Assembly: GCA_021372615.1 (NCBI GenBank) | Contig: JAJFUB010000056.1 | Coordinates: 1 to 34,438, forward strand | Reading direction: 5' to 3' | DNA length: 34,438 nt | DNA from: a bacterium | GTDB taxonomy: Bacteria > Armatimonadota > Zipacnadia > Zipacnadales > UBA11051 | Program-made: the position numbers and the translations under genes | Notes under the pieces: model-generated | What the model saw: only the letters and a program-made list of their open reading frames with translations | Told to the model about the DNA's origin: nothing | The model's database searches: none | Shown here: positions 5,743 through 29,094 of the stretch, piece by piece | How the letters are laid out: each line of letters opens with the position of its first letter | How positions within the stretch are numbered: position 1 is the first letter of the stretch

Positions 5743-6052
5743 GAACGTGACCTCCGGCGGCCCCTTCGGGGCGCGCGTATGGGTGAGCGCGTCGCGTTCC
5801 GTGGGGTGCCGCCCACGGCTACGTACGATGGCCCGCTTCGCGGGCATGAACGGCACGGTTAGCACGGGCTGCTGACCGTGGGCTGCCGCCCACGGCTACA
5901 TACGGTGGCCCGCTTCGCAGGCATGGACAGCGCGGCCGTCGGCGCCGAAGGCGCCCGCGTGCGTAGCCACGGGCGTGAGCCCGTGGGTGCGAGCGTCCCT
6001 CCTCCATCGTCCGTCGGCTAACGTTGCCGGCGCCCCAAAGGGGCCGCCGGGC
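5743..6052. repeat. Intergenic cluster of RAYT-type palindromes (REP/BIME-like)
   Basis: This 310-bp stretch has no convincing gene. It holds three hairpins of one family. Those at 5799-5822 and 5876-5899 point one way and that at 5963-5986 points the other. Each is an 8-bp stem with a 4-nt loop and a GTAG foot on the strand read toward the hairpin. The 5799 copy has one stem mismatch. Two accessory hairpins accompany them: GGCCCCTTCGGGGC-type (about 5759-5772, variants at 5943-5956 and 6031-6044) and GCCCGCTTCGCGGGC-type (5830-5844 and, with one change, 5907-5921). The block 5759-5850 recurs as a diverged direct repeat at 6520-6609 on the other side of the transposase gene. The ribosome-binding site of the secreted hydrolase gene lies at its left end. 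Confidence 0.85.
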
Positions 6053-6505
6053 TCACTGCCAGATGTACCGCGGATCGTAGGCCACGCCGTGCTGTTCCAG
6101 GAACGCCACAAACTCCTCCTCGAAGGTGCGTTCCCGGTGGTGAGCCTCCTGGCCGGCGAGATAGCGTGTGAGTCCGTCAACCTCACTGCGCCCGACGGTG
6201 AAGGCGCCATAGCCATCCTGCCAGCCGAAGCCCACAGCCAACGCGACGGTCTCGCTGAGCCAGCGCGAGGAGTTCGACTTGATGTCGCGCATCATGTCCG
6301 AGATGGTGCGGTCCTTGGGCATGACGGCGAGCAGGTGCAGATGGTTGTCGGTGCCGCCGGCCGCGAGCAGTTGGCCCTTGCGGTTGCGCAGGATGCCGCC
6401 GATGTATTCGAACAGCCGCGGCCGGGCCGCGGCGGCAAGCAGAGGCCGCCGCTCCTTGGTGCTGAAGATGAGATGATAGCGCAGACACGTGAACGATCCT
6501 GCCAT
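6053..6505 (-). CDS. REP-associated tyrosine transposase (RAYT, IS200-like Y1 family)
   Basis: It has 150 residues, the usual length for this family, and appears intact. The first strand carries YHLIFSTKERRP. The HUH metal/DNA-binding motif is HLH at residues 55-57 (in DNHLHLLA). The region WQDGYGAFTVGRSEVDGL leads to the presumed catalytic tyrosine, Tyr115, in RYLAGQEAHH. The tail LEQHGVAYDPRYIW is the standard C-terminal signature of RAYTs. RAYTs are domesticated relatives of IS200/IS605 transposases that nick or join single-stranded REP hairpins carrying a GTAG or GGAG foot. Exactly such hairpins flank this gene on both sides. The ATG at 6505 is chosen over upstream codons because those lie in the repeat. 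The stop sits next to a GGCCCC-type hairpin. It probably acts only on REPs rather than mobilising itself. Confidence 0.93.
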   Translation of the reverse strand: MAGSFTCLRYHLIFSTKERRPLLAAAARPRLFEYIGGILRNRKGQLLAAGGTDNHLHLLAVMPKDRTISDMMRDIKSNSSRWLSETVALAVGFGWQDGYGAFTVGRSEVDGLTRYLAGQEAHHRERTFEEEFVAFLEQHGVAYDPRYIWQ

Positions 6506-6604
6506 GGTTCCCCCTCGGACGGCCCCTTCGGGGCGCACGTGGTATGACGGGTCGCGATCCGTGGGCTGCCGCCCACGGCTACGCACGATGGCCCGCTTCG
6601 CGGG
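6506..6604. repeat. Upstream REP/BIME-like copy flanking the RAYT gene
   Basis: This is the second copy of the roughly 90-bp block seen left of the transposase. It has a GGCCCC/GGGGC hairpin near 6520-6533, a 25-base spacer, the REP hairpin at 6559-6582 (stem CCGTGGGC/GCCCACGG, loop TGCC, followed by CTAC, which is GTAG on the other strand), and a GCCCGCTTCGCGGGC hairpin at 6591-6605. It is in direct orientation relative to 5759-5850. Confidence 0.85.
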
Positions 6605-6786
6605 CACGGACATCACAGCATGGACATCACAGCACGGACATCACAGCATGGACATCACAGCATGGACATCACAGCATGGACATCACAGCATGGACATCAC
6701 AGCATGGACGGCACAGCATGGACGGCGCGGCACGTACGTCACGGCGCGTACATCACGGCGCGTACGCCACGGCGCGTACGCCACGG
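6605..6786. repeat. 14-bp tandem repeat array, 13 units
   Basis: There are thirteen consecutive units of exactly 14 bp. Units 1-7 are nearly identical (consensus CATGGACATCACAG, with CACGG in units 1 and 3). Units 8-9 change to GACGGC. Units 10-13 are diverged (for example CGCGTACGCCACGG, twice), so the array decays left to right while keeping length register. Because 14 is not a multiple of three, all plus-strand frames stay open and give spurious peptides. The first unit starts at the end of the flanking GCCCGC hairpin; a similar CATGGAC follows the sister hairpin at 5921. The array therefore probably expanded from the tail of the REP-like block. Confidence 0.93.
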
Positions 6787-29044: not shown

Positions 29045-29094
29045 GTGCGCCCCGAAGGGGCCGAACGATAGTAGCCACGGGCGTGAGCCCGTGG
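29045..29094. repeat. Isolated copy of the RAYT-type palindrome
   Basis: A GCCCCGAAGGGGC hairpin (about 29049-29061) is followed after about 10 bases by GTAG and the stem CCACGGGC/GCCCGTGG with loop GTGA (29071-29094). The hairpin is identical to that at 5963-5986, about 23 kb away, beside the transposase gene. It lies between the oxidoreductase and the secreted binding protein gene. Confidence 0.85.

Follow-up and report, generated by a model that had tools for sequence, protein, structure and literature searches.

The transposase gene at positions 6053 to 6505 of the window (the whole 34,438-nt stretch of DNA that was analyzed) and the GTAG-footed hairpins around it very probably form a REP-type element, in which a TnpAY1 enzyme of subclass 1.2, from the IS200 branch, is paired with Acido-Lenti-1 (RF01687) as its REP unit. 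More generally, we consider it likely that REP systems occur on the IS200 branch apart from those of class-2 RAYTs, that subclass 1.2 is tied to Acido-Lenti-1 in at least six named phyla, and that the classification of RF01687 should change from small RNA to DNA repeat linked to a transposase. To the extent that the literature could be checked, the link between the gene and Acido-Lenti-1 is new within a known kind of system: among open PMC papers, four mention Acido-Lenti-1 or RF01687, none of which concerns RAYTs or REPs judging by title or abstract, and no paper tying either name to REPs was found. What is already described (PMC3733652) includes REPtrons, REP dimers in tail-tail arrangement, and GTAG REPs from Planctomycetes and Verrucomicrobia. 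The features concerned are listed below in the numbering of the window.

6053-6505 (-): gene for a Y1/HUH transposase of 150 aa, of the TnpAY1 subclass-1.2 type; start codon ATG at 6505, stop codon at 6053-6055.
6559-6582 (-): REP hairpin on the upstream side, GTAG-CCGTGGGC-GGCA-GCCCACGG; foot 5' on the gene's strand.
6590-6605: short G+C hairpin, partner in the 6559 unit, GCCCGC-TTC-GCGGGC, from the sequence; repeat family D2.
5963-5986 (+): REP hairpin on the downstream side, in the AC version and opposite in orientation to 6559, GTAG-CCACGGGC-GTGA-GCCCGTGG.
5941-5956: short G+C hairpin, partner in the 5963 unit, GGCGCC-GAA-GGCGCC; the second helix of RF01687 in the alignment.
5876-5899 (-): further REP hairpin, GT version, in a tail-tail dimer with 5963; RF01687 22.0 bits.
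5907-5922: short partner hairpin of the 5876 unit, with one mismatch; repeat family D2.
5799-5822 (-): degenerate REP hairpin, 7-bp stem with one pair broken; from sequence, repeats and ssDNA fold.
5831-5845: short partner hairpin of the 5799 unit; repeat family D2.
29048-29094 (-): complete RF01687 unit, Rfam 37.5 bits; its GTAG-footed 8-bp hairpin is 29071-29094 on the + strand.
6520-6536: GGCCCC-TTC-GGGGC hairpin in the interval from the upstream REP to the start of the gene; inverted repeat I3, direct repeat D3.
6030-6046: matching GCCCC-AAA-GGGGC hairpin just 3' of the stop codon; inverted repeats I2/I3.

The five hairpins of the preliminary description (5799, 5876, 5963, 6559 and 29071) are all present at those positions. 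Four of them, 5876-5899(-), 6559-6582(-), 5963-5986(+) and 29071-29094(+), carry a perfect 8-bp stem and a 4-nt, GNNA-type loop directly 3' of GTAG, and their folding as ssDNA gives -11.0 to -12.2 kcal/mol with z from -3.2 to -5.0, the value of -3.2 belonging to the hairpin at 6559. The degenerate copy at 5799 reaches a z of -1.8. Each of the five is part of a two-hairpin unit composed of the 8-bp hairpin, the TAG foot, a spacer of ~12 nt and a short G+C hairpin. The GT version of the stem lies upstream of the transposase gene, and the nearest downstream copy is the AC version in inverted orientation. A terminator reading of the hairpins was dropped, as no T-tract terminators were found at the locus, where a consensus scan also returned no promoter- or terminator-like site. 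Positions 6604-6785 are taken up by a tandem array of a 14-bp repeat (GCATGGACATCACA, ~10-13 copies), which decays towards 6785 and directly adjoins the short G+C hairpin at 6590-6605.

Inspection of the 6.4-Mb source genome reveals 34 copies of the pattern GTAGCCNNGGGC-loop-GCCCNNGG against 0 for a reversed-pattern control, and the pattern is therefore not due to chance. The swap of GT and AC between the two sides of the stem proved genuine and compensated, with 30 of the 34 copies paired at both free positions (18 GT/AC, 10 AC/GT, 1 AT/AT and 1 CA/TG) and 4 unpaired. Loops follow the stem version, GT copies preferring GGAA, GGCA or GGGA and AC copies GTGA. With 150 of 2039 candidates scored, the genome holds at least 85 RF01687 matches, and joining these to the exact pattern gives 109 units, again a lower bound. 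Neighboring units almost always have their feet inward (19 tail-tail, 2 head-head and 6 in the same direction), and solo units far outnumber transposase genes. There are two subclass-1.2 genes, each with one REP family of its own: GTAG-CC(GT|AC)GGGC for the gene on contig C56 and CTAG-GCGGG(G|C)GC for that on C40. One GTAG hairpin belonging to the window's family, standing alone without an inverted partner, was seen ~0.5 kb from one of the five class-2 Y1 genes in this genome (L024, G000:C146:73901-74056 and 74521-74544).

The open reading frame at 6053-6505 is complete and matches Pfam Y1_Tnp at 81 bits. The protein carries NHLH, W95-Q96 and Y115 within YLAGQEAHH, that is to say Y---Q--HH, which is common to nearly all of the closer homologs aligned. 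Y---Q--HH is the signature of TnpAY1 subclass 1.2, a group reported to have no REP association and a range of mostly Cyanobacteria and Bacteroidetes (Quentin et al. 2018, PMC6006769); the RAYT tyrosine motif is Y---NP. The five other Y1 genes of the source genome are Y---NP. In a 61-row tree, Y---NP rows including E. coli RayT split from the subclass-1.2 and IS200 rows at 100/100, with a topology that leaves a single origin of subclass 1.2 relative to the IS200 rows unsettled. A profile search of PDB sequences matched only IS200/IS605 TnpA, and the protein scored 23.6 against a cut-off of 80 for NCBIfam REP_Tyr_transpos and 57.2, just above the cut-off of 55, for transpos_IS200. The AlphaFold2 model (pLDDT 92.5) finds its best PDB matches in IS608 and ISDra2 TnpA (E about 1e-8), with E. 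coli RayT (4er8) a lower-ranked match at 2.7e-6. Two homologs occur in the source genome, at 100% (self) and 37% identity, with no identical copies; the multiple near-identical whole copies of the IS200/IS605 type were not seen there. Of the marks of a class-2 RAYT, the dispersed, inverted GT[AG]G-footed flanking hairpins are present, and the Y---NP motif and class-2 placement are not. The enzyme is thus a TnpAY1 of subclass 1.2 on the IS200 side and not a class-2 RAYT, and its earlier labeling as a RAYT is not supported by tree placement, PDB profile search, REP_Tyr_transpos score or motif.

Acido-Lenti-1 was judged to be probably RNA by Weinberg et al. (2010, Table 1; PMC2864571), is typed 'Gene; sRNA' in Rfam as RF01687, and has gone unexplained since 2010. 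The unit at 29048-29094 lies above the RF01687 gathering threshold (37.5 against 37 bits). Copies beside the gene fall below it at 21.5-27.8 bits, the hairpin at 6559 giving 21.5 bits and that at 5963 with its partner (5941-5986) 27.8 bits (E 7e-4), and many copies in relatives are well above it. These hairpins are most likely mobile DNA repeats of this transposase type rather than RNA.

We examined 80 loci with similar genes, obtained from a scan of named genomes, and ran all of them through Rfam. Above the gathering threshold there are 72 RF01687 matches in 34 of the 80 loci, with 58 at most 250 nt from the gene, 12 at 250-500 nt and 2 at 500-1000 nt, and none beyond 1 kb in the 265 kb searched. 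Density within 250 nt of the gene is 1.47/kb. Orientation follows the gene, 25 of 32 upstream matches being '-' and 33 of 40 downstream matches '+' relative to it. Independently of Rfam, the same hairpin occurs inverted on both sides of the gene in 40 of 79 loci, compared with 1.6% of cross-locus pairs. A scan of relatives' flanks for GTAG alone gave few matches because most lineages use ATAG, TTAG or CTAG, and nTAG was used instead; the foot described as constant is constant in the window's hairpins, and GTAG is the local form of what is nTAG across other lineages. Within 400 nt of the gene, 70 of 102 loci have an 8-bp hairpin with an nTAG foot, oriented as expected, compared with 7 among 131 distal windows. 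Judged by their record titles, the loci where matches adjoin the gene belong to Planctomycetota, Verrucomicrobiota, Acidobacteriota, Bacteroidota, Deltaproteobacteria and Zixibacteria. The paired hairpin is also present at a Lentisphaerae locus, whose genome has at least 34 matches.

The TAG hairpin is missing at 32 of the 102 subclass-1.2 loci, and some genes of the subclass have other hairpins. The more distant subclass-1.2 genes of L104, L106 and L109, which have a shorter C-terminus, are flanked by GTCC-type hairpins such as GTGTCCGC-CTGC-GCGGACAC and CCGTCCGC-CTGC-GCGGACGG rather than TAG-CC, possibly a second REP type of the subclass. As a single case, Flavo-1 RNA (RF01705) lies at L182:3609-3668, ~160 nt downstream of a subclass-1.2 gene of Flavobacterium sp. 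J49 that is flanked by a different hairpin (AATCCCGTTAGGGATT).

Cross-genome comparison extends the link between gene and hairpin, sought in relatives, across genomes and phyla. Among genomes with the gene, RF01687 is found in 36 of 39, above threshold in 33 of 39, and the unit is dispersed at tens to >100 copies per genome; these per-genome copy numbers are lower bounds, as a limited number of candidates was scored in each. Co-occurrence of the gene and RF01687 over 151 relatives gives Fisher p values of 3e-8 to 7e-12 depending on the cut-off, with shared ancestry ignored and with many of the compared genomes being MAGs. When 61 relatives were sorted by Y1 content, RF01687 was present in 9 of 15 genomes with subclass 1.2, 1 of 31 with other Y1 genes only and 1 of 15 with no Y1 gene (p 4e-5 for subclass 1.2 versus other Y1 only, shared ancestry ignored).

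Three exceptions bear on the proposal that hairpins should be lacking where the enzyme is lacking, which holds insofar as the hairpins strongly track the gene and fails for G046, G116 and G082. These genomes are 96-99% complete and have at least 21, 33 and 7 RF01687 matches, respectively, and no Y1 gene was found in any of them; hairpins can therefore exist without the enzyme. They may be REPs that have outlived their enzyme, a situation described for E. coli REPtrons (PMC3733652). In G116 (L202-L217), >30 RF01687 units are alike over ~100 nt and sit among several other interspersed repeats; the close likeness of these copies means that any loss of the enzyme would be recent.

Comparison of individual loci adds the following. 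Between sister species, G137:C49 and G132:C24 agree in their flanks but only the former has the REP dimer, and no clean empty site was found in sister genomes, the G137/G132 intergenic stretch differing throughout. G108 and G133 both have the unit at the locus compared. L227 (G020:C848) contains tandem units of ~390 nt, each with TATAG-footed REP hairpins, which suggests local amplification of REP dimers.

Stem variation was analyzed in 43 units from many genomes. Pairing is retained in 98.5% of stem cells, both sides change in 11 of 13 stem pairs, and 131 double changes occur. The covariation score is 0.68 compared with <=0.09 for slid controls. Only 1 G.T and 4 A.C are found among 545 stem cells, and this near-absence of one-sided wobble steps suits a DNA hairpin more than RNA. 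Stem difference also rises with protein distance (Mantel r 0.20, reached in 1 of 2000 permutations, shared ancestry ignored). What the preliminary description took for a co-evolving RAYT/REP pair is upheld as a transposase with its own REP-like hairpins and compensatory stem change, and not as a RAYT; the identity of the hairpins with Acido-Lenti-1 goes beyond that description.

Mobility of the unit, and the mechanism behind it, we infer from the biochemistry of IS608, ISDra2 and E. coli RayT (PMC8266576). By this analogy, the unit would become single-stranded on the lagging strand, where the enzyme may recognize the folded ssDNA hairpin together with its nTAG foot. The foot would serve as a guide that chooses a nearby cut, with cutting and joining presumably carried out through the enzyme's tyrosine. 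REP units would be copied or moved in trans while the enzyme's own gene stays single-copy, and each divergent enzyme would retain hairpin stems of its own, with stem changes taking place in compensated steps.

Other explanations were weighed against this element. One holds that the hairpins are kept for another host function, as transcription ends or as nucleoid or polymerase sites, and that the transposase inserts beside them. Genomes with many units and no Y1 gene favor such a function, and known REPs acquire host roles. It would not, however, yield matched inverted flanks, gene-specific stem families or a density that drops to 0 by a distance of 1 kb, and the locus has no T-tract terminators; we regard it as unlikely. 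An ordinary IS200-like insertion sequence (class 1.1) that still moves as one unit, is bounded by the hairpins and has left the solo hairpins as remnants seems to us quite improbable. Although the protein lies on the IS200 side and passes the transpos_IS200 cut-off (57.2 versus 55), each genome has one gene copy, here with a 37%-identical paralogue and no identical copies, solo units greatly exceed genes in number, and the signature is Y---Q--HH, not YxENQ. The hairpins are moreover inverted at the two ends, unlike IS608-type ends, in which a guide lies 5' of each palindrome on one strand.

A very improbable alternative is that Acido-Lenti-1 is a genuine structured small RNA beside which the transposase merely tends to sit. 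The judgment of Weinberg et al. (2010) and the Rfam typing argue for an RNA, and REPs elsewhere are often transcribed (PMC3733652). Against this stand tens to >100 copies per genome in both orientations, the inverted flanking of one gene type, the 1 G.U-type versus 4 A.C in 545 cells with no RNA-wobble preference on the modeled strand, and the consensus scan, which detected neither promoter-like nor terminator-like sites at the locus. A class-2 RAYT/REP pair of the Pseudomonas or E. coli kind is scarcely credible, since the protein lies outside class 2 by its tree position, its motif, the PDB profile search and its NCBIfam score, even though the GTAG foot, 8-bp hairpins and inverted flanking match classical REPtrons.

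The pairing of a subclass-1.2 enzyme with Acido-Lenti-1 shares features with several known systems and coincides with none of them. The enzyme resembles published subclass 1.2 (PMC6006769) in its Y---Q--HH and WQ motifs, length of ~150 aa, low copy number and IS200-like core. In contrast to the published group, the window copy has NHLH in place of DH[IV]H, the genes are common in Planctomycetota, Verrucomicrobiota and Acidobacteriota, and they are REP-flanked (70/102 loci), which contradicts the published description, the absence of REPs not being a defining sequence feature of the subclass. The unit shares with Acido-Lenti-1 (PMC2864571) an 8-bp stem, CUA (the TAG foot on the other strand), a spacer and a short G+C stem; unlike an element filed as sRNA, it has the behavior of a DNA repeat that is dispersed and linked with a transposase. 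Inverted GTAG-footed flanks, dispersed dimers, gene-specific REP families and a low-copy enzyme are shared with the RAYT REPtrons of E. coli and Pseudomonas (PMC2817692, PMC8266576), from which this element differs in its Y---Q--HH enzyme of the IS200 side as opposed to Y---NP, its two-hairpin unit, its nTAG rather than GT[AG]G foot, and dimers with feet almost all inward. IS200/IS605 elements (IS608, ISDra2) provide the closest solved structures and the nearest outgroup and share the HUH motif and single tyrosine, but here there are no IS-like identical copies, the ends are inverted, and hairpins are dispersed alone. TnpAY1 class 3 (Solibacter, PMC6006769) likewise combines a non-class-2 Y1 enzyme with high-copy hairpins in partly the same phyla, yet has a Y----Q motif and a CnGA foot, not TAG.

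These results suggest what a structured-RNA family left without explanation since 2010 may be, and they carry a warning that DNA repeats are counted as sRNAs when these genomes are annotated with Rfam. They also provide a candidate substrate for subclass 1.2, an orphan group of HUH enzymes. Domestication of transposases into REP systems is suggested to have taken place on the IS200 side too, and the rules of enzyme-hairpin pairing therefore become comparable between two lineages, with natural pairs of enzyme and stem sequence making those rules directly testable in vitro.
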